Positions 1,846-50,216 of a DNA stretch of 51,974 nt are shown piece by piece. The stretch is from a virus. The notes under the pieces were generated by a model. It saw only the letters and a program-made list of their open reading frames with translations. It was not told the origin of the DNA and did not search any database. Location of the stretch: IMG/VR virus record IMGVR_UViG_3300028802_000021, positions 1-51,974 of that record; one strand, written 5' to 3'. Within the stretch, counting starts at the first letter, position 1, and every line of letters begins with the position of its first letter. Both the position numbers and the translations under genes were made by a program.

Positions 1846-1869
1846 GGTGCACGGGGTTGCCCGTGTGCC
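1846..1869 (+). promoter_or_regulatory. Leader hairpin with GGTGCACGGG stem
   Basis: GGTGCACGGG (1846-1855) pairs with CCCGTGTGCC (1860-1869) over the tetraloop GTTG. Upstream bases TAGCCCAT are shared with the hairpin at 2894. The ribosome-binding site and start of the gene at 1916 follow. No T-run follows. Confidence 0.55.
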
Positions 1870-1915
1870 GTGGAGGTGACGCGAACTGTTGCCTGGGAAA
1901 CGGAGAGAGATTCTG

Positions 1916-2170
1916 ATGGTGGTCAATTTAACGTGGGAGTCGGTTCCTGGCGGCGATGATGCGTCTCTGCCAAGCCGTGAGGACATCGCTGCGGCGTTGA
2001 TGAAGCGTAGGGGTCGGTCTGCGGTGGTGGGTCGCCATGACCGTGTGGTGCGTGCGGATGCGCATGTGGAGCGGATCAATTCGGGCCGTGAGTATGGGGC
2101 GGGTTTTTCTGCGGTGCGGCGCCGGGTCGGGAATGAACACCGGGTGTATGCGTGGCGGGATGACGCGTGA
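1916..2170 (+). CDS. Small basic protein
   Basis: An 84-residue protein. The ATG at 1916 is preferred over the upstream TTG at 1889 because a GGAGAGAG ribosome-binding site sits about 7 bases before it. The C-terminal half is Arg-rich (MKRRGRSAVVGRHDRVVRAD, then FSAVRRRVGNEHRVYAW), suggesting nucleic acid binding, but no named domain is visible. Its stop overlaps the ATG of the next gene. Confidence 0.65.
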   Translation: MVVNLTWESVPGGDDASLPSREDIAAALMKRRGRSAVVGRHDRVVRADAHVERINSGREYGAGFSAVRRRVGNEHRVYAWRDDA

Positions 2171-6473: not shown

Positions 6474-6829
6474 CGGGCGTTCCATCCGCCGGGTTGTAGG
6501 CGCCCGGTCTCGCGGGAGTGGCAGGAGGCGCACAGGGCTCGCAGGTGGCGGTCAGCGTGCGGGTCCTGGTTGCGCTGCTTGATCAGCAGGCGGATGCCTC
6601 GGGGGTGGTGGTCGGCGACAGAAGCCATCCGCCCGCAGAGGACACAGGCGGGATGCCGGCACAGGTAGTCGAGGCGGATCTGGGGCCAGTCGTCGCCGTA
6701 GAGGGCACGCCAGTGGGTGCGCTGCTGGCGGTGGAGGCGGCGGTGTTGATCGCAGGCCCCGTCGGTGACCCGGGTGGGGCAGCCGGGGGTGGTGCAGGGC
6801 TTCCTGGGGAGGATCGTCACCCGTTCCAC
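6470..6829 (-). CDS. HNH endonuclease
   Basis: A 119-residue protein. Zinc-ligand pairs CTTPGCPTRV...CDQH and CVLCG...CASC flank the nuclease core ADHHPRGIRLL, with HLRALCASCHSRETG supplying the last His. This is the short stand-alone HNH type widespread in actinophages, often linked to packaging or mobile DNA, although this copy is far from the terminase. It would nick or cut DNA using a metal ion; target unknown. It carries no intron or intein features. Confidence 0.85.
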   Translation of the reverse strand: MERVTILPRKPCTTPGCPTRVTDGACDQHRRLHRQQRTHWRALYGDDWPQIRLDYLCRHPACVLCGRMASVADHHPRGIRLLIKQRNQDPHADRHLRALCASCHSRETGRLQPGGWNAR

Positions 6830-39419: not shown

Positions 39420-39811
39420 TACTCGCGGCCGGTGCGCTTATTCCGGCCGATGCGGGACTTGCCCTCAGGGTCAGGCTGCTCGGGCGGCTCGGGGCGCTGC
39501 ACTCCGTGGGCGCTGGGCTCCTTCATGTGGGTCGACAGCCGGTTCGCCTCATTGTTCTCGTGGTTGTCCGGATCCTCGTCGAGGGGTTCATCGATCGGCT
39601 TCGCGCCGACCTTCTCCGCCATCTCCGGGGTCATCTGGGCGGTGATTTCCATACCGGACACGTAGTAGTGGTATTCGCCGAGTTCCTGCGGCTGTTCGGT
39701 CATTCTGATTACTCCTCGGTGGAAGGCTTCGCCGGTGAGGAGCGGGAGCGTCTGATGGCTGGCGCCACAGGCCGCTCCCGGTGTCCCGCAGATCCGGCAG
39801 TAGACGTTCAT
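39419..39811 (-). CDS. Small head-associated protein with zinc knuckle
   Basis: A 130-residue protein. An N-terminal VYCRICGTPGAACGAS and an acidic helical centre (MEITAQMTPEMAEKVGAKPI, EPLDEDPDNHENNEANRLS) precede a basic, Pro-rich end. ATG 39811 overlaps the capsid stop by one base. Small proteins with this layout follow the capsid gene in several actinophages; the role is unknown. Confidence 0.7.
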   Translation of the reverse strand: MNVYCRICGTPGAACGASHQTLPLLTGEAFHRGVIRMTEQPQELGEYHYYVSGMEITAQMTPEMAEKVGAKPIDEPLDEDPDNHENNEANRLSTHMKEPSAHGVQRPEPPEQPDPEGKSRIGRNKRTGRE

Positions 39812-41106
39812 TACGGCAGGGTGATCTTCACGAATGCCTGGGGGCGGAGAATGCCGAACGCGCACCGCATTTCTGCCAAGATCGCGACGAGGTTCCTGAC
39901 GAAAAAATCGGCATGACTGTCTGTTGCGGTCACTGACGTCTGTTCCCGGTCCCAGATGACGCCCCAATTCCAGGCGGCGCAGTAAGCAGTTCCCGGCGGC
40001 AAAGCCTCCGACTCCACAACGGGCAGACCCCACAGGCGGGGGGTGCTCATGCCGAACGGGCCGGAGCCGAAGAACAGCTTCTCGCCGCCGGTACGCAGCA
40101 GGTCGATCTTCTCCCAGTCGACGGGGTTCATCGCATAGGCGGTCGGAACAGCCCGGCCTCCGATGCGGACCTTCGTGCGGGCCTTGCGGGTGGTGTCGAA
40201 AGCGTCACCGGAAGCCGCCTGAAGCTGAACGCCCGGGGTGTTGGCCAGGCCGAGGAAATGCTCGCCCGTGCCGTCGCCGGTGATCAGTTCCGTTTCGAGG
40301 GCCTCTTCGAGGTTGTAGGTGAGGAAGTTGTCGATCAGGGTGCGGATCTGCCCGACGTCGGCGAGGGCCCGCTTGGTGATCGGCATCCAGTTCGCAATGT
40401 TCTTCACGTCGGTGCTGTCGCGTTCGAACTCGAAGCCGCTCTCGGGCTTGACGCCACCCTGGGCGGGGGTGACGATCGGCGGCCCCACCGCGTCGATCGG
40501 GGCTGTCGTCGTCGCCTCAGGGACCACTGCCGCGTTGTTGTCGGTGTTGACCATCTTGACGAACTCGACATGGTCCGACGTGGTGCTGCCGGTGCCGAAC
40601 AGCGACCGGACTGTCAGGGGCCGCTGGTAGAACGGGTCGAGCAGGCCCCGGAAGTCATGCTCGATCATCGGCCCGCCGGACACGTCGTGGTCGCCGGAAG
40701 TCATCAGTGACTTCATGCTGCCGACGTGGATCGTGTTCGTGTTCACCCGCTGCTTCTCGGCGAAGACACCACCCCGGGCGGTCTTCATCAGCAGCTTGTA
40801 CTCCGGCGAGGTGGCGAAAACCTCACCCATGGACTTGCGCCGCGTGCCCTGCGCCTTCTCCTGGGCCATGTCGTCGGCGAGGGACTGGACTTCCTCACCG
40901 AGACCGCCGGAGAGGTCCAGCATCTGGTTGCGGAACTCCTCCTCCTTCTTGGCCCGGTCGGAGAGGTCGTTGGCTTTGGTCATGTGACCGTCGATGGCGT
41001 CCTTCTCGACGTCGGTGAGGGACCGTTCCTGCTTCTCGGCGACGTCGAGGATCCCCTTGGCGGCGTTGGTTTCCGCCAGGATCGCGTCACGGATGCTCTT
41101 ACGCAT
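39811..41106 (-). CDS. Major capsid protein (HK97 fold)
   Basis: A 431-residue protein. The first about 90 residues are helical and charged (NAAKGILDVAEKQERSLTDV, RAKKEEEFRNQMLDLSGGLG), the delta-domain-like part removed by the protease. Later segments FLTYNLEEALETELITGDGTG and VMNPVDWEKIDLL-like, GLPVVESEALPPGTAYCAAW, match the HK97-type phage_capsid family. ATG 41106 overlaps the protease gene end. Confidence 0.85.
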   Translation of the reverse strand: MRKSIRDAILAETNAAKGILDVAEKQERSLTDVEKDAIDGHMTKANDLSDRAKKEEEFRNQMLDLSGGLGEEVQSLADDMAQEKAQGTRRKSMGEVFATSPEYKLLMKTARGGVFAEKQRVNTNTIHVGSMKSLMTSGDHDVSGGPMIEHDFRGLLDPFYQRPLTVRSLFGTGSTTSDHVEFVKMVNTDNNAAVVPEATTTAPIDAVGPPIVTPAQGGVKPESGFEFERDSTDVKNIANWMPITKRALADVGQIRTLIDNFLTYNLEEALETELITGDGTGEHFLGLANTPGVQLQAASGDAFDTTRKARTKVRIGGRAVPTAYAMNPVDWEKIDLLRTGGEKLFFGSGPFGMSTPRLWGLPVVESEALPPGTAYCAAWNWGVIWDREQTSVTATDSHADFFVRNLVAILAEMRCAFGILRPQAFVKITLP

Positions 41107-41776
41107 TGGTGGTTTCCTGTTCCTCTCGTGACCTGGCGGCCAGGTATGCGGTCTCCGCGTCCAGCTCCAGCACCTCGAACTGTTTGCGGCACAAAAAAAC
41201 CGCCCCGGAAGGGCGGTAGGGGGTGGACGAATCTCCAGGTGGGTCGTCAATGGGGGGTGGGGCCTGTTTCACGCCGATGAGTTCCGTCATCGGGTTCATG
41301 CCGAGCGGGGTGGGCCCGACTTCGTGCAGGAACAGGTCGAGGAGTTCGTTGGCGTCGTTGTCTTTGCTGCGCTGCTCGTTGATGACGTCGTAGGTGAACG
41401 AGAACTGCTTCACCCGGCGGTTCTTCATCAGATGCCGGACCTGCTTACCCATGCCGAAGTCATCGAGGCGGGCTTTGACGTACAGGCCGCCGTGTTCCCG
41501 GACCCAGTCGTTGACCCAGTCGGGCATGTCGGCGCCGGTGTCGAGTTCTTTCGCCTCGATGACCTCGCCGATGTTCATGGACGGGTCATCCAGGCGGTGT
41601 GACCAGTAGACCGGTATCGGGGCCCCCGAGTTCGCCCAGTGTTCCAGGCTTTTCTTGAACGCCCCGGGACGCACGATGTCGCCGCCGTAGTCCTTGTTGT
41701 CGAACACCGATACAACAGCCTCGAAAACTCCCTCATCGTCGGTGGTGATCGTTGCGGGCATGCTCTTGTGTTTCAT
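41099..41776 (-). CDS. Capsid maturation protease (HK97 prohead type)
   Basis: A 225-residue protein: VVSVFDNKDYGGDIVRPGAF, then HWANSGAPIPVYWSHRLDDP (His60), MPDWVNDWVREHGGLYVKAR and RRVKQFSFTYDVINEQRSKD (Ser126). The PVYWSH and FS-containing motifs fit the serine-type prohead protease that cleaves the capsid precursor. The C-terminal 60 residues carry a low-complexity segment and contain a terminator-like sequence at DNA level. Confidence 0.8.
   Translation of the reverse strand: MKHKSMPATITTDDEGVFEAVVSVFDNKDYGGDIVRPGAFKKSLEHWANSGAPIPVYWSHRLDDPSMNIGEVIEAKELDTGADMPDWVNDWVREHGGLYVKARLDDFGMGKQVRHLMKNRRVKQFSFTYDVINEQRSKDNDANELLDLFLHEVGPTPLGMNPMTELIGVKQAPPPIDDPPGDSSTPYRPSGAVFLCRKQFEVLELDAETAYLAARSREEQETTNA
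41193..41217 (-). terminator. Terminator-like hairpin inside the protease gene
   Basis: On the - strand: ACCGCCC, loop of 5, GGGCGGT, then a run of seven Ts. This is a complete intrinsic terminator in the direction of late transcription, but it lies within the coding part of the protease and upstream of the capsid gene. Confidence 0.65.
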
Positions 41777-43071
41777 CAGCCACTCCCGACGGGCTTGGGT
41801 CCAGGGGGCTTCCCATTCGATTCCTCATTGGACGGGTTGTTAGGGGCGGTGTCCCTGGGCGAGGCCAGTCCGCCGGCGGTGACGTTCAGCGGGGTGATGA
41901 GCTCTTCCGCTTCCGGCAGGTCGGACAGGTTGTACAGGGCCCGGCCTTCGTTGCGGGTCATCCAGGGCCCGCCGACGGATGCGCTGATCGCTGCTGCCTG
42001 GGTTTCGAAGGAGCCTTGCATCTTGGCCTTCAGGTTGAACTCGACGTAGATCTTGGACGCTCCGGCGGGGTCGACGTCGGGGAGCAGCTGCAGTTCGATG
42101 TCCTGCTGCAGCATCTCCAGCAGCGGGCCCAAAGCGTCGGCGTACAGCATTTTGCGGAGCTCGCCCAGCGATGACTGGTTGGCGCTTTTGGACATGCCCA
42201 GCATCGACGGGTCGACGTGGTAGGCGGCGGCGACCTCTTCACGGGAGAGCTGCCGGGCTTCGATGTACTGGGCGTCTTTCGGGGTGATGCCACCCTCGTG
42301 CCAGGACATGCCGTCCTCAAGGATGGGGGTTCCTCCAGCCTGTTGGGTGGAGCTGTAGGCACCCCAGTCGGTCATGAACCTTTGCCGGGCGGTGGACGAC
42401 CAGCGGGGGGCCTTTTCGGGCCGGGTGATGAAGCCGGAGATCCGGGCCCCGTTGCGCCACATCTGCTCGCGGTATTCGGCGGCGGCGTATTCCTCTTGGA
42501 GGAGCTGCTTGAGGGTTTCCAGCGGCGGGTAGCCGTCTCGGGGGGTGCTGGGGTTGTAGCCGTAGAAGTGGACGACCTGGTCGGGGTCGAGGTCGATGGG
42601 GCCTCGGGTGCCTTGGATCCGGTATTTGTCGGGGGCGAGGGGGTTGCTGCCGACAAGTTGGACGAACCGGCGGGGGACGGGGTGGACGCCGTTGGAGCCG
42701 TCGGGGGCTTTGGCTTTCAGCCAGAACGCCGAGTTGAAGATCGAATACTCCTGGACCGTCCAGTTGATCAGCTTGTATTTACTCCACTTCGACCCCGGCC
42801 AAGGATCATTGAGCAGCTTCGACAGCGGATGATCGCGGACCTTCTCCCTGTCGGTGTCGGAGGTCCGCTCGAAGACGTCCAGCCCGAGCTGGGCGACGTT
42901 ACGGCCGAGGAAGTCGATGACAGTCCGCACCGCCGGCTGCTTCTGGTAGATCTGCTCGTAGCTGCGGAACTGCTCGGGGCCCACCTGAATGAACGCTGGC
43001 GGGTCCAGGCCCAGGATCGTGTTATTCGGGCGGACCTGCTTGATGACTCCTGCGGTCAACGCGAAAGGCAC
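41776..43071 (-). CDS. Portal protein
   Basis: A 431-residue protein: AFIQVGPEQFRSYEQIYQKQ, then PAVRTVIDFLGRNVAQLGLD, DHPLSKLLNDPWPGSKWSKY and RDGYPPLETLKQLLQEEYAA. The SPLxTLKQLLxEEY and MLGMSKSANQSSLGELRKML segments are the classic HK97/SPP1-family portal pattern. It forms the dodecameric ring at the capsid vertex through which DNA enters. Followed by the protease and capsid genes. Confidence 0.88.
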   Translation of the reverse strand: MPFALTAGVIKQVRPNNTILGLDPPAFIQVGPEQFRSYEQIYQKQPAVRTVIDFLGRNVAQLGLDVFERTSDTDREKVRDHPLSKLLNDPWPGSKWSKYKLINWTVQEYSIFNSAFWLKAKAPDGSNGVHPVPRRFVQLVGSNPLAPDKYRIQGTRGPIDLDPDQVVHFYGYNPSTPRDGYPPLETLKQLLQEEYAAAEYREQMWRNGARISGFITRPEKAPRWSSTARQRFMTDWGAYSSTQQAGGTPILEDGMSWHEGGITPKDAQYIEARQLSREEVAAAYHVDPSMLGMSKSANQSSLGELRKMLYADALGPLLEMLQQDIELQLLPDVDPAGASKIYVEFNLKAKMQGSFETQAAAISASVGGPWMTRNEGRALYNLSDLPEAEELITPLNVTAGGLASPRDTAPNNPSNEESNGKPPGPKPVGSG

Positions 43072-43332: not shown

Positions 43333-43522
43333 GATCCGTTAGCTCCATATGGGTGACAGAAATTGCGGCGGCGGGCCCGGTTCTGCATGCTGGGTGCCGG
43401 AAGTGAGCGAGAGATAAGCCCGGCTCCCGCCGGTGGTTCTCTCCATCCGTCGCTTCTCGCTTTGCCGGTAGCGTGGAATCCCTTTGGCGTCGACTGCTTG
43501 GGTTCCTGAAACCGGCGCAGTG

Positions 43523-43550
43523 GACCCTCCCGTCTGCGGGTGGGAGGGTC
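43523..43550 (+). other. Hairpin just before the tRNA
   Basis: GACCCTCCC (43523-43531) and GGGAGGGTC (43542-43550) pair perfectly around 10 bases, with T-G-T-T after it. It could be a terminator of a short upstream transcript or an RNase processing signal for the tRNA precursor. Confidence 0.45.
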
Positions 43551-43556
43551 TGTTAC

Positions 43557-43630
43557 AGCGCGGTGGAGCAGCCCGGTAGCTCGACGGACCCATGATCCGG
43601 AGGTCGCCAGTTCGAATCTGGCCCGCGCCA
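43557..43630 (+). tRNA. tRNA-Met (CAT), initiator-like
   Basis: A 74-base cloverleaf. Acceptor AGCGCGG pairs with CCGCGCC except for the first pair (A1 and C72 do not match). D-arm GAGC/GCTC, T-arm GCCAG-TTCGAAT-CTGGC, anticodon CAT. The unpaired 1-72 position and the GTGGAGCAGCCCGGTAGCTC core are initiator-like. Unusual: C instead of U at position 33, only two of the three initiator G-C pairs in the anticodon stem, an A27-G43 mismatch, and no encoded CCA. Confidence 0.8.
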
Positions 43631-43637
43631 CAGGGGG

Positions 43638-43704
43638 GTTGTTCGCGCGTTCCGAGCTTGTTGGACGCTCAGCCGGTCTTGCTCGGACCTTCGGCGCGGA
43701 CAAC
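43638..43704 (+). ncRNA. Long hairpin RNA after the tRNA
   Basis: GTTGTTCGCGC (43638-43648) pairs with GCGCGGACAAC (43694-43704) with one wobble; inside, TCCGAGC (43651-43657) pairs with GCTCGGA (43681-43687). A 67-base stem-loop in a region with no protein gene. Strand assumed from the tRNA. Confidence 0.5.
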
Positions 43705-43746
43705 TCCCCGTCCAGCCCGGCCCTGATGGGGTTCTGGGGGGATGGA

Positions 43747-43826
43747 ACACGGCAATGCCGTGTCACTCAAGGGCGCGGCGGCTACCGGAAGACTCCAGCG
43801 AGGTTTTCCGGCCCGCCGCGTTCTTC
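43747..43826 (+). ncRNA. Tandem structured RNA, copy 1
   Basis: Hairpin ACACGGC-AAT-GCCGTGT, then a conserved single-strand CACTCAAGGG, an outer stem CGCGGCGG/CCGCCGCG, an inner stem CCGGAA/TTCCGG with a CTA bulge, and a conserved TTCTTC end. Copy 2 (43917) shares the unpaired parts exactly but carries different stems. Confidence 0.6.
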
Positions 43827-43916
43827 ACGTCCGGGTGACGGCGGGTTGCGTCCCGGTGTCCGGCCATTATGCTGAGACGGTCCGGATCGCCTATGCGATC
43901 TTCGGACCTGGTTAAA

Positions 43917-43993
43917 GCGGGGCAGTGCCTCGCCACTCAAGGGCGCGGCGGCTACCAGGGGCAGGCACACTTCCCTGGCCCGCCGCGTTCTTC
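43917..43993 (+). ncRNA. Tandem structured RNA, copy 2
   Basis: Hairpin GCGGGGC-AGT-GCCTCGC, conserved CACTCAAGGG, outer stem CGCGGCGG/CCGCCGCG, inner stem CCAGGG/CCCTGG, and TTCTTC. It is 170 bases from copy 1. Inner and first hairpins differ from copy 1 on both arms while pairing is kept. Confidence 0.6.
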
Positions 43994-44154
43994 TATGGGC
44001 GACGCCAGGGCCAGGCGGAGCCACCTACGGCCAGGTGGACGGCGATGGCGAGCAGACCGGCGATGGTGAAGGCGGAGACATATTCGCCGCCGGTGTCTAT
44101 GAGGTCGAGCAGGAGCGCCACTCCGAAGAGGATGGCGGCGGCGACGGCGAACAT
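43993..44154 (-). CDS. Holin-like small membrane protein
   Basis: A 53-residue protein starting at ATG 44154, next to the endolysin stop. Two hydrophobic helices (FAVAAAILFGVALLLDLI and AFTIAGLLAIAVHLAVG) are joined by DTGGEYVS and followed by a short tail (WPWRRP). Small two-helix proteins right after a lysin are typical holins that open the membrane for release of the enzyme. No functional motif proves it. Confidence 0.65.
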   Translation of the reverse strand: MFAVAAAILFGVALLLDLIDTGGEYVSAFTIAGLLAIAVHLAVGGSAWPWRRP

Positions 44155-44898
44155 CTACTCGGCGCCTTCGCCGAGGACTGCCACCTTGAGCTCCGCCAGG
44201 TCGTCCTTGATGTCCTTCAGGTCGCATTTAACCCACTGAAGGTCGCGCCCGTTGTAGCCGATGCCGGCGTTGACGCCCATCGTCGGGTTCGGGTCGTTCG
44301 TCGGCACCGGGTTGCCCTTGGAGTCGTAGCGCTGCACACAGTCCTCGTAGGCGGCGGTGGCGAGCGCCTTCTTCCCGTCGGTGCTCTTGGACCAGTTCGT
44401 CATCCACTTCTTGAAATCGGATTCGTTCATGGTGTCACCCCACTCGTCGACGAGACCCCAGGAGCTGGTGTCGTTCTCGTTTGTCGTGTCGTACTTGGCG
44501 GAGAAGTGGCCGTGCTTGTCGTGCGGGTTCGAGCCGGTGTAGTTGCGCCAGTTCCAGCCGTTGGACTCTTCGGCGATCTTCTTGTTCCAGATGACGTAGT
44601 AGAGCCTGTCGTCCTTGTTGTTCTTGTGGTTGTTGACGATGAGGTTGATGGCGTCGGTGAAGGTCATCCCGTTGGGCCAGGGTCCGGTGCAGTCGACGTC
44701 GATGGCGTGGACTTCGTTGATCGAGTCGGAGTCTTCTCGGGAGGTGGCGCCGGTTTCGTCGGGGTTGTGGTCGGAGGTGCTGCTGGCGTGGGCGGAGTCG
44801 CCGATGGACCCGTCGGTGGAGTCGTCTCGGTCGGGGTTGAGCTCGTCGAACTCGTCGAATAGGGATTTGAGGCAAGGGATCAGCACCCAGCTCGCCAT
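44155..44898 (-). CDS. Endolysin, M15-type peptidase
   Basis: A 247-residue protein. GAGGAGG lies upstream of ATG 44898. STSDHNPDETG (His44), EVHAIDVDC (His64, Asp67, Asp69) and NPHDKHGHFSAKYD (His126, His129, His131) carry the His/Asp residues of D-Ala-D-Ala carboxypeptidase-like (M15) zinc peptidases. The C-terminal 40 residues are helical and may bind the cell wall. It would cut peptide cross-links of peptidoglycan at lysis. Placed between large terminase and portal, which is unusual. Confidence 0.8.
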   Translation of the reverse strand: MASWVLIPCLKSLFDEFDELNPDRDDSTDGSIGDSAHASSTSDHNPDETGATSREDSDSINEVHAIDVDCTGPWPNGMTFTDAINLIVNNHKNNKDDRLYYVIWNKKIAEESNGWNWRNYTGSNPHDKHGHFSAKYDTTNENDTSSWGLVDEWGDTMNESDFKKWMTNWSKSTDGKKALATAAYEDCVQRYDSKGNPVPTNDPNPTMGVNAGIGYNGRDLQWVKCDLKDIKDDLAELKVAVLGEGAE

Positions 44899-44978: not shown

Positions 44979-45233
44979 GTGACGGAGGAACAGAGTCCGG
45001 TGCTGCTCGGCGTCCTGATAGCACTGCTGGGAGCTTCCACCGCGTTCAGCTTCGGGTACCTGAAGCACCGGCTGGAAAGATCGAACTCCGACTACAAGGA
45101 CACGAAGGCCAAGGTGGTGCCGCTGCGGAAGGCGTATTGGCTGGCCTGGTGGGCGGCGGTGAAGGTCGGCTTCTGGGTGTTCATCGTCGGGTTCATCCTG
45201 GTCGCCTGGGTGTTCAGCGATGCGCAGAAGTAG
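44979..45233 (+). CDS. Two-TM membrane protein of the + strand cassette
   Basis: An 84-residue protein: TEEQSPVLLGVLIALLGAST, then AFSFGYLKHRLERSNSDYKD and WLAWWAAVKVGFWVFIVGFI. Two transmembrane helices are separated by a charged cytoplasmic loop. TTAGGGT lies about 7 bases before the GTG, so a leaderless start is possible. It runs against the late operon. It could be a second holin-type or a prophage-expressed membrane protein. Confidence 0.65.
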   Translation: MTEEQSPVLLGVLIALLGASTAFSFGYLKHRLERSNSDYKDTKAKVVPLRKAYWLAWWAAVKVGFWVFIVGFILVAWVFSDAQK

Positions 45234-46023: not shown

Positions 46024-46290
46024 ATGACAGACGAGGTAGTGACGTTGACCCTGCACATCCGCAAAGAGGTCTACGAGCGGATCTGGACTGCCGCTGCCCG
46101 CAACGGCATGTCCCGGACGGCGGTGGTGAACGAATATGTGGAGCTGTTCGACAGCATCGCCACCTCGCCTTCGGGAACCCGGATGAAGGTCAGACTGCTT
46201 CGCGACGGCACCGAACTGTGGGTGGATGTGGTGCGTAACGACATCGCCGGTGGGAGACGCCGGCGATGGCAGTGGTTCAGACGATCATGA
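46024..46290 (+). CDS. Ribbon-helix-helix regulator
   Basis: An 88-residue protein. N-terminal DEVVTLTLHIRKEVYERIWT then AAARNGMSRTAVVNEYVEL is the strand-helix-helix core of CopG/Arc repressors. The C-terminus is beta-like (GTRMKVRLLRDGTELWVDVV) with a basic end. GAGAGGAG precedes ATG 46024. It ends tail-to-tail with the large terminase (14-base overlap). Likely controls the cassette or a nearby promoter. Confidence 0.7.
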   Translation: MTDEVVTLTLHIRKEVYERIWTAAARNGMSRTAVVNEYVELFDSIATSPSGTRMKVRLLRDGTELWVDVVRNDIAGGRRRRWQWFRRS

Positions 46291-47968
46291 GGTTTCCGTC
46301 CTCATAGGCGGACCGGATCGTCTCCATGCCCTCCCGCGACTTCCACGCGTTGACCGCCATCGCCGCCGCCGGAACCGCGTCGATGCGGGCCTTGTCCCTG
46401 CCCCGCTCCGGTTTCACCGGGCGCACCAGATTGGGGTCGTACGGAGCATGTCGGACTTCGCACTGATCGAAACAGTAGCGGGCCACTGGGTTGCCGTGAT
46501 GCCGCAACAGTCCCCGTTTGACGGTACCCATCAGGTCTGTCATCCCGGGACTCATGCGATCGTAAGTGTTGCGGTACGCCGTCAGTTCGCCTTCTTCGAT
46601 GTCGAGCTTCAACACGTCGGCGATCCGGTTGATGATCGGCCACATCGACCACTCGTCGCAGTCCGCGGCGACGATCCGGTAGGCCTTCGCATCCTCGGCG
46701 ATATCGTCGATGACCTTGTCGTAGTCGATGACGGAGCCTTCGGTGATCGTCAGCCAGCCCTGTTTCGCCCAACGCGTGAACTTGCCGTCGTGAAGCTGGT
46801 CAAGGCGTTCCAGCCCCGACTCGGGCAGCCAGAACCGCCACATGATGTGTGCCGGGTCCTCGTTCGGCTCCTCTCCTGGGACCACCACCGCCCATGCGGT
46901 CAGGTCGAATTTCGCGGCTAGGTCGAACCCGGCGTAGGCGATGCGGCCGTGCAACTCCTTGTTGTGCCAGTGCGGGTTCAGCCACAGGTTGCCGGTGCAG
47001 GTATCCCACAGGTGCATCGGCATCCACCGTGACGACTGCGCCACCCACTGGTTGAGCCGGAACTGGCGGAAGGCGTTCTCCTTCGCCGGGTCGTTGCGGG
47101 CCTCCTGGGCTTCGTCGCGCAGCGACTGCCAGGACAGGAACTCGCCCAAAGCCGGGTTGGCAAGAGGCCACAGGGTTTCGTCCCAGGGGTCGGCGTCGGC
47201 GGGGATGTTCTTGATGTAGACGAAGATGTGCGGGGCCCGGTCCGGGTTCTCGGCGATCTTCAACATCTCGTCGTGTTCCTGCTTGGCGAACGACTGCGGA
47301 TCGTCGCCGGCGGTGGTGGCGGCGACCATCAGCGGCTGGACCCGGGCGCCCATGCCGGTGCGCATGGCATTCCACAGGTCGGAGTTCTTCTGGGTAAGCA
47401 CTTCATCGAAGACGATGCCGTGGGGGTTGTGGCCCAGGTTGCCGGCGGAGTCGGAGGCGACGGCTTCGTAGTAGGAGCCGGTGGTGGTGTCGTAGATCCG
47501 CTTCGCCTGCTTGTTGATCTTCAGCCTGGAAGAGAGCAGCGTCGACAGGTGCACCATGCGCTCGGCGACGTCGAAGACCTTGCGGGCCTGGTCCCGGTCC
47601 ATGGCGGCGCCGTAGATCTCGGCACCCTCCTCATCGTCGGCGATGAGCAGGTACAGGGCGATCCCAGCCAGAATCTCCGACTTGCCGTTCTTGCGGGCAA
47701 CCTCCACCCAGGCCAGCCGGTAGCGGCGCACATAGCAGTCGTGCTCTGTGGACCAGGTGACCTTGCCGAACAGCGGGGCGATGATGTCGTCGAGCTGCCA
47801 CTGGGAGAGCCGGAACGGGGTCCGGGACCAGCGACCCTTGGTGTGGACGAGGATTTCGGCGAAAAACGCATTCACGTGTGCGACTCGGGGCCCGCACAGG
47901 TGGTCTCCGCGCTTGGTGCAGGCGATGTCGTCGAATGTTTTTCCACATTGGGGCAGCCGCTTAGGCAC
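46277..47968 (-). CDS. terL: Large terminase subunit
   Basis: A 563-residue packaging ATPase/nuclease. GTG 47968 follows GGGGAGG. Walker A VARKNGKSE (about residues 90-98), Walker B GIVFDEVL (about 184-191), and nuclease acidic residues in AYAGFDLAAKFDL (about 347-355) and RIDAVPAAAMAV near the C-terminus. It has the usual TerL length. It cuts concatemeric DNA and drives it into the prohead through the portal. Confidence 0.9.
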   Translation of the reverse strand: MPKRLPQCGKTFDDIACTKRGDHLCGPRVAHVNAFFAEILVHTKGRWSRTPFRLSQWQLDDIIAPLFGKVTWSTEHDCYVRRYRLAWVEVARKNGKSEILAGIALYLLIADDEEGAEIYGAAMDRDQARKVFDVAERMVHLSTLLSSRLKINKQAKRIYDTTTGSYYEAVASDSAGNLGHNPHGIVFDEVLTQKNSDLWNAMRTGMGARVQPLMVAATTAGDDPQSFAKQEHDEMLKIAENPDRAPHIFVYIKNIPADADPWDETLWPLANPALGEFLSWQSLRDEAQEARNDPAKENAFRQFRLNQWVAQSSRWMPMHLWDTCTGNLWLNPHWHNKELHGRIAYAGFDLAAKFDLTAWAVVVPGEEPNEDPAHIMWRFWLPESGLERLDQLHDGKFTRWAKQGWLTITEGSVIDYDKVIDDIAEDAKAYRIVAADCDEWSMWPIINRIADVLKLDIEEGELTAYRNTYDRMSPGMTDLMGTVKRGLLRHHGNPVARYCFDQCEVRHAPYDPNLVRPVKPERGRDKARIDAVPAAAMAVNAWKSREGMETIRSAYEDGNLMIV

Positions 47969-48021
47969 CGGTTTCACCTCCCCGAACGAGTGACATGGCG
48001 CACCGGGCGTCACTTACATGC

Positions 48022-49233: not shown

Positions 49234-49417
49234 CGACCGGGTGGTGCACCTGAACGCGTCGCGGATGGTCCGGTGGGCGAAGAAGGTCGGCGCGCAGGAG
49301 TTCGGCTTCTATGTGGTGATCGACGGCGACCGGATAGTGATCCCGCTCAGCCTGACAGAAGACGAGACGGACCCGGGCCCTGAACCGTCTCCTGAACCTG
49401 AGACTCCCCCACTCTGA
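49223..49417 (+). CDS. Truncated QEFG module protein
   Basis: A 64-residue protein from GTG 49223 (AGGGG upstream); ATG 49208 is an alternative. HLNASRMVRWAKKVGAQEFG then FYVVIDGDRIVIPLSLTEDE is the second half of the QEFG module without the upstream helix-turn-helix, followed by a Pro/Glu-rich tail. Likely a partial duplication or a dimer partner of the longer proteins. Its 3' end overlaps the end of the small terminase gene on the other strand by 71 bases. Confidence 0.65.
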   Translation: MTDDDRVVHLNASRMVRWAKKVGAQEFGFYVVIDGDRIVIPLSLTEDETDPGPEPSPEPETPPL

Positions 49418-49832
49418 GCCCTCCTCGGGCTGACGGGGTCAGTCCGAAGTGGCGGGCGTAGTCCTTCATCAGGTTGGACGCTTCGCGCATGATGCTGGTG
49501 GCGGGGTGCTTGAGGGGGCCTCGGGGGCTGTCGATGACGAGTCCGTCGCGTTGGATCATCCGGGATGCCTTGCGGAAGGTGACGACTGCTTCGCAGTAGC
49601 CGTGGAGGATGTCCCGGTCGGCGGGGGCCACCGTTTTCATGATCTCCAGCTGCCGGAGGGTGTATTCCCAGACCTCGATGACTTCTTTGTCTTTCGACGG
49701 GCAGATGGGGGTGCCTTCTTCGGGGATGGGTTCGTCGTTGTTGACGAGTTCGGGGTGGCCGCCTCGGAGAAGCTTGAGGGCGTTGGGTGTGCCGCCGGCG
49801 GTGCGGCTGCCGGGTGGTCGTCCTCTGCCCAT
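49347..49832 (-). CDS. terS: Small terminase subunit (P27 family)
   Basis: A 161-residue protein beginning MGRGRPPGSRTAGGTPNALK, then LLRGGHPELVNNDEPIPEEG, PSKDKEVIEVWEYTLRQLEI and ASRMIQRDGLVIDSPRGPLK with AREASNLMKDYAR-type helices. This matches the P27-family small terminase that recognises phage DNA for packaging. It heads the late operon; a cassette of regulators on the opposite strand separates it from the large subunit. Confidence 0.82.
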   Translation of the reverse strand: MGRGRPPGSRTAGGTPNALKLLRGGHPELVNNDEPIPEEGTPICPSKDKEVIEVWEYTLRQLEIMKTVAPADRDILHGYCEAVVTFRKASRMIQRDGLVIDSPRGPLKHPATSIMREASNLMKDYARHFGLTPSARGGLRVGESQVQETVQGPGPSRLLSG

Positions 49833-50036
49833 GATCGGTTCCTTTCGGTGGGTCTTGAGGGTGGCGAGGTCTTGTCCTCGCCCATACGGGTGGCGATAGC
49901 ATCCAGTTGCGCGCCGGTGTGAGATAATCGCCGGGCAGTTCCAGCAGGGGTTACCGTCCCGGCCCACCACCCCTTCAGGTTCTCCGCCACGCAAGCTTCG
50001 AAGCTGAAGAAGGGCCGGGACGGTCTTGAGGAGGGC
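49833..50036. promoter_or_regulatory. Late promoter / intergenic region
   Basis: Divergent spacer between the small terminase (leftward) and the rightward genes from 50037. It must carry the late promoter and contains a large inverted repeat (49953-50024). No clear -35/-10 hexamers are seen. Confidence 0.45.
49953..50024. repeat. 72-base stem-loop with 13-bp arms
   Basis: ACCGTCCCGGCCC (49953-49965) and GGGCCGGGACGGT (50012-50024) pair perfectly; inside are CTTCAG/CTGAAG and a 12-bp palindrome AGCTTCGAAGCT. It precedes an SD (GAGGAGG) and start on the + strand, and lies next to the small terminase. Candidate leader RNA or packaging-site element. Confidence 0.5.
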
Positions 50037-50216
50037 ATGGCGCCGATGAGCGACGACGAGGAACAGCCGTGCGTCTGCGGCAGGCAGCGCATCAAATCCA
50101 TCCAGGACATCGCCGACCACTTCGGGTTCACCTACCAGCAGGCGTTCGACTACGTGCTCACCATCGGCATCGCCCACTCCCAATCCGCCCTCACCCAGAA
50201 AGAGCCCGGCGAATGA
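50037..50216 (+). CDS. Small Cys-containing HTH-like protein
   Basis: A 59-residue protein: PCVCGRQRIKSIQDIADHFG, then FTYQQAFDYVLTIGIAHSQS. GAGGAGG is close to both ATG 50037 and ATG 50046, so the exact start is unsure. IQDIADHFGFTYQQAFDYVL looks like a short helix-turn-helix. Function unknown. Confidence 0.6.
   Translation: MAPMSDDEEQPCVCGRQRIKSIQDIADHFGFTYQQAFDYVLTIGIAHSQSALTQKEPGE

Follow-up and report, generated by a model that had tools for sequence, protein, structure and literature searches.

Organisation of the locus

The window, i.e. the whole stretch of DNA analysed here, is a 51,974-base IMG/VR virus record in which + strand genes lie between the terminase and portal genes (Table 1). 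One of these has a homologue in almost every relative, and a small RNA island separates it from the divergent portal operon. The closest portal proteins among cultured phages, at ∼45% identity, are those of Gordonia and Arthrobacter phages, and an actinobacterial host is therefore likely. The island contains two tandem copies of a folded RNA element of ∼80 nt, referred to here as element A, after which a 53-aa ORF and a PHROG-32486 gene, both on the - strand, are inserted in the window and in the relative L028.

The first-pass annotation had placed these elements, preceded by a tRNA, inside the late operon in a stretch covered by no protein gene. The tRNA is real, and the island does adjoin the portal operon, but it lies on the opposite strand to the portal, protease and capsid genes, has a promoter-like motif of its own and precedes a conserved + strand gene. 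The stretch is otherwise free of protein genes, except that the 3' end of copy 2 shares a single base with the stop codon of the - strand 53-aa ORF. The TTGCGG-17-CATGCT motif upstream may serve as a promoter, although it bears little likeness to the sigma-70 consensus and is absent from the output of a strict consensus scan. The phage tRNA-Met is initiator-like: the relatives have non-pairing bases at positions 1 and 72 (A.C, A.A, C.A, T.T or C.C) and mostly G-rich anticodon stems, and CCA is not encoded.

Table 1. Coordinates of the RNA island, its neighbours and element B; positions are those of the window unless another record is named.
Feature	Position	Strand	Basis or remark
Capsid	39811-41250	leftward	
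Protease	41099-41776	leftward	
Portal	41776-43071	leftward	
Putative promoter, TTGCGG, 17 bases, CATGCT	43363-43391	+	alignment; hexamer positions kept in most relatives, spacer diverged
GAGATA...TTCTC hairpin	43409-43444	+	upstream of tRNA; kept in most relatives, including some without element A
Hairpin GACCCTCCCG-TCTG-CGGGTGGGAGGGTC	43523-43550	+	directly upstream of tRNA; L028 also has a hairpin there
tRNA-Met (CAT), initiator-like	43557-43631	+	1-72 mismatch by eye; present in most relatives
Long hairpin between tRNA and copy 1	43634-43709	+	by eye; hairpin of differing sequence at same place in L028, L125, L128
Element A copy 1	43744-43826	+	folding, block comparison, covariance model
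Copy 1 P1 hairpin, loop AAT	43747-43753/43757-43763	+	fold
Copy 1 linker CACTC	43764-43768	+	fold
Copy 1 long stem P2	43769-43781/43813-43825	+	fold
Copy 1 internal loop, CTA opposite C	43782-43784 opposite 43812	+	fold
Copy 1 inner stem P3	43785-43792/43804-43811	+	fold
Element A copy 2	43914-43993	+	anatomy as copy 1; both arms of P1 and P3 changed
53-aa membrane-like ORF (MFAVAAAILFGVALLLDL...)	43993-44154	-	stop codon overlaps copy 2 end by one base
PHROG 32486 gene	44155-44898	-	found only in window and L028/L239
Gene with homologue in nearly all relatives	44979-45233	+	gene comparison
Terminase large subunit	46277-48013	leftward	
Terminase small subunit	49347-50183	leftward	
Element B	L242:3232-3321	-	
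Element B	L128:~1853-1944		also in L241, L454, L468
Element B	Microbacterium phage Cece OP068343 3666-3744		unannotated intergenic
Element B	Curtobacterium phage Nonagon PQ868950 7647-7726		unannotated intergenic
Element B	Curtobacterium phage Commonplace PQ868961 7821-7875		unannotated intergenic

Fold and covariation of element A

The two copies of element A have a start-to-start spacing of 170 bases, and share a 36-nt block that is 89% identical and a 17-nt block that is fully (100%) identical. When folded on the + strand and compared with shuffled sequences, copies 1 and 2 gave z values of -5.3 and -3.7, respectively. Across the family the conserved element is 72-96 nt long and opens with P1, a 7-bp hairpin with the loop ARU and the invariant tip GGC-ARU-GCC, which is joined by the five-base linker CAYUY to the long stem P2. 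Next come a CUA/C internal loop with invariant GG/CC pairs on either side and the inner hairpin P3, which varies in both stem and loop. The spacing of the copies, and the differences on both arms of the first hairpin and the inner stem with pairing kept, are as first described. The stretches CACTCAAGGG and TTCTTC, which had been taken as unpaired, are only partly so: AAGGG pairs with TTCTT, including G.U pairs, as the foot of P2, and CACTC is left as the linker. Pairing between the P1 loop and the linker (ARU/AYU) was also considered; it fits most members, but copy 1 is mismatched and there is no compensatory change, and it is therefore not claimed.

Relatives were sought with script-screened pattern scans of IMG/VR, which yielded L028, L125, L128/L132 and L130. 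The majority of matches in two broad scans were chance coding matches; the first wide pattern, for instance, returned ∼119 stretches, of which one was real and the remainder chance coding matches. Since the second pattern fixed the sequence of P2, the P2 core at first seemed invariant, a bias that was removed by searching with P1 and the linker only. This pattern, which leaves the long stem free, recovered L519/L527 and L505, in which P2 is altered on both arms. Together, the scans and the covariance model define a small family of eight distinct members.

With five sequences, two-sided changes were present in 8 of 27 pairs, a count reached in 0 of 500 shuffles. With all eight members this rose to 12 of 27 (three in P1, five in P2 and four in P3; again 0/500 shuffles), with 94.4% of cells paired, and alignments slid as controls gave far fewer such changes. 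Model R1, built from five sequences, scored members that it had not seen at 60.8 bits (L130), 68.6 bits (L519/L527) and 63.0 bits (L505), and model R2 scores members at 76-91 bits and its best non-member at 19.9. The claim of a structured RNA made in the first-pass annotation is strongly supported, with compensatory changes in every helix and a model that separates members from noise. That the two partly identical copies in one genome might simply reflect a recent duplication, free of structural constraint, is in practice refuted by the two-sided changes, by their absence from the shuffles and by the occurrence of members in unrelated phages. It is close to certain that both stretches represent a single conserved secondary structure of RNA type, common to several phages.

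Strand of element A

Read on the + strand, the alignment has G.U in 21 cells at eight sites versus A.C in five cells at two sites, a ratio that is reversed on the - strand. Wrong-strand matches to the covariance model reach at most 24 bits, and tRNA-Met is on the strand of element A in the window, L028, L125, L128 and L132. These observations, together with the promoter-like motif upstream, support the reading of element A from the + strand. They also bear on the notion that the hairpins act as DNA, i.e. as single-stranded structures for replication, packaging or recombination. Compensatory changes alone cannot tell RNA from single-stranded DNA, and the mixed flanks of L028 point to recombination within the identical core. 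However, the strand asymmetry, the constant orientation with respect to tRNAs and the same-strand intergenic position in an unrelated phage make a role as DNA very improbable. The single copy in L028 combines the P1 and 5' flank of copy 1 with the 3' flank of copy 2, the arrangement expected if recombination across identical cores had deleted the intervening sequence, or if the converse duplication had taken place.

Comparison with known RNAs

No Rfam 15 family matched element A at the gathering threshold across the window or, with the limit relaxed to E 10, around the island; the relatives were scanned too, and only tRNA and chance matches were returned. The element had not been recognised in the initial reading of the sequence, and no matching family was found here. 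The suggested relation to GOLLD and ROOL is not supported. These are also orphan structured phage RNAs often found near tRNA genes (one GOLLD example is downstream of a Met-tRNA; PMC12286853), and element A is near tRNA-Met or a tRNA-like RNA in seven of eight members. Yet GOLLD and ROOL exceed 600-800 nt, contain many pseudoknots and match Rfam models, whereas element A, at ∼80 nt as against >600 nt and with no Rfam match to E 10, shows no relation to them in sequence or fold in covariance searches; proximity to tRNAs is the only common feature.

Covariance searches of sets of 395, 390 and 376 actinobacterial genomes found no element A, a weak negative in that about a dozen candidates per genome were scored. 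Among the matches listed, a pattern scan of genome contigs gave only chance matches, as did BLAST of element A against cultured phages and plasmids. A BLAST match in OneinaGillian was discarded, being inside a gene and not found by R2, and a comparison for rRNA mimicry gave no above-chance match to one actinobacterial 23S region. No description of element A was found in the open-access literature, and element A is a previously undescribed RNA family.

Setting in relatives and other structured RNAs

In seven of the eight members, the small RNA island that contains element A adjoins the portal operon, and A is found there behind a promoter-like motif and on the strand of tRNA-Met or of tRNA-like RNAs. 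In L130 it is flanked by tRNA-like RNAs and in L527 it precedes one, and more RNAs follow it in L125 and L128. It is supported, then, that element A belongs to a short RNA transcription unit comprising the promoter-like motif, hairpins, usually tRNA-Met or a tRNA-like RNA, and then A. The locus is retained in phages whose portals are 61-82% identical, and the tRNA in many of them, but the contents vary: tRNA-Met occurs with A, with A and B, with B only or with tRNA-like RNAs, or none of these is present. Element A is missing from the same-clade phages L240, L241, L245, L247 and L251, and must therefore be dispensable there or replaced by other RNAs. The contigs L130 (IMGVR_UViG_3300043313_002644) and L246 (IMGVR_UViG_3300043313_001183) come from one metagenome; the former stops within the island and the latter shortly before the portal gene, and the two may be fragments of a single phage genome interrupted at the structured RNAs.

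The eighth member, L505, is a 124-kb contig of an unrelated phage, in which element A has an ATPase gene on one side and, on the other, a 101-aa ORF and then a radical SAM gene. Element A ends ∼20 nt before the 101-aa ORF, a DNA polymerase clamp gene is near, and all are on one strand. The radical SAM gene just downstream in this phage (L573:7208-10180, - strand) encodes a 990-aa protein. The presence of element A in this unrelated phage indicates that it either moved between unrelated phages or is old.

A second structured RNA, element B, occurs in the same islands (Table 1); in eight sequences, 8 of its 24 predicted pairs have two-sided changes. Like A, it is a two-hairpin structured RNA of similar length, found in the islands of L242, L241 and L128 on A's strand. 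It differs from A in that it forms a three-way junction, includes an outer stem, has AGAAC and GGCTGG-type blocks that do not vary, and is present also in cultured Microbacterium and Curtobacterium phages. Terminator-like hairpins follow it in Cece and Nonagon, and no Rfam match to element B was found in the scanned loci.

The tRNA-like RNAs, of ∼120-150 nt, were observed in L130 (rc ~209-344), L245 (rc ~5847), L247 (rc ~4360), L253 and L555, with a further example in L527 (~6690-6805). Their 7-bp acceptor stem differs in sequence from phage to phage but stays paired, the D and T arms are ordinary, and two long hairpins take the place of the anticodon arm, usually with CAAGARC between them. 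ARAGORN and Rfam miss these RNAs. Just after A in L130 (rc ~475-530) is a minihelix with an acceptor-like stem and a T arm (GCCGGTTCAACTCCGGC), lacking D and anticodon arms; it is possibly a processing signal, having the minimal RNase P substrate shape. Downstream of the tRNA-like RNAs in L130, L245 and L247 is a common and very stable stretch of ∼130 nt, element Y (GTGGGCGCCGGGCACCGGATGGGAACCGGGC...).

Possible function of element A

No gene was found to co-occur consistently with element A among the few genomes compared. That the unpaired bases are invariant while the downstream neighbour changes suggests that something binds element A, rather than that it controls a single gene. Since the invariant bases cluster in the P1 tip, the linker and the internal loop, and there is no common downstream gene, the reading favoured here is of element A as a noncoding RNA module with a protein partner bound in trans, although taken whole this stands at somewhat less than an even chance. 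The predicted module would be either a domain of the unit's transcript or an RNA released via tRNA-processing enzymes. Its invariant surface (the GGC-ARU-GCC tip, the CAYUY linker and the CUA/C loop with its GG/CC pairs) would be presented to a phage or host protein, and tandem copies may raise dose or valency. Against this count the lack of a consistently co-occurring gene and the same-clade phages that do without A; in addition, element A of L505 lies ∼20 bases upstream of a same-strand reading frame, an arrangement that equally suits a role in cis.

The main rival is that element A acts in cis, as a nascent-RNA element, on its own RNA polymerase, countering pausing or termination in the manner of HK022 put, an RNA that binds the beta-prime zinc-binding domain. 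The put RNAs are ∼70 nt long, comprise two stem-loops with bulges, are present in two copies per genome and are situated just downstream of, or ∼270 nt after, a phage promoter (PMC9378689). Element A, with P1 and P2/P3 as two stem-loops in ∼80 nt, is similar in size and outline to put as described. It would lie, by eye, ∼65 nt (L527) or ∼350 nt (window) after the putative start at the promoter-like motif, which is conserved upstream in the alignment; it is also location-tolerant and tandem, and leads in L505 into genes on its own strand. However, put elements belong to two separate early operons whereas the copies of A are tandem within a tRNA unit, read-through in the window would yield RNA antisense to two genes, and no consistent downstream operon or terminator was found. 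A put-like role is accordingly possible but doubtful, clearly behind binding in trans.

It is less likely again that element A is a transcript-end or processing element, i.e. a hairpin that ends, protects or separates the RNAs of the tRNA unit as a terminator or RNase stop. In the window and L028 a very stable GC stem is indeed followed by UUCUUC, and copy 2 is placed where the + strand unit meets a - strand gene. Nevertheless, the U tract that follows the GC stem of an intrinsic terminator is not found in all members: the tails are UUCUUC, CAUCCU (L125/L128), UUCC and UAUAUCCC (L505), and a consensus terminator scan gave no terminator at the two window elements. Moreover, the invariant tip, linker and bulge would be needless for a plain terminator, and there are the further RNAs after A in L125 and L128.

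A cis-regulatory leader, whether riboswitch-like or protein-binding, for a downstream gene would agree with L505, where the 101-aa ORF and then the radical SAM gene follow closely. The remaining seven members have no directly following gene on the same strand, and the gene that comes next in the window and L028 is convergent, which leaves the leader an unlikely explanation, more so than a transcript-end element.

More broadly, and as speculation that we consider rather improbable, actinobacterial phages may keep exchangeable 'RNA cassettes' of mutually unrelated structured RNAs (A, B, the tRNA-like RNAs in which the anticodon region has been rebuilt, and others) at one initiator-tRNA locus as a noncoding toolkit for countering or taking over the host. 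The structured small RNAs of phages beyond the enteric models are almost uncharted. Element A adds a new RNA family with covariation support, a ready covariance model and a locus that holds other unlisted RNAs, and, because element B occurs in cultured Microbacterium and Curtobacterium phages, the role of such RNA islands can be tested in the laboratory now.
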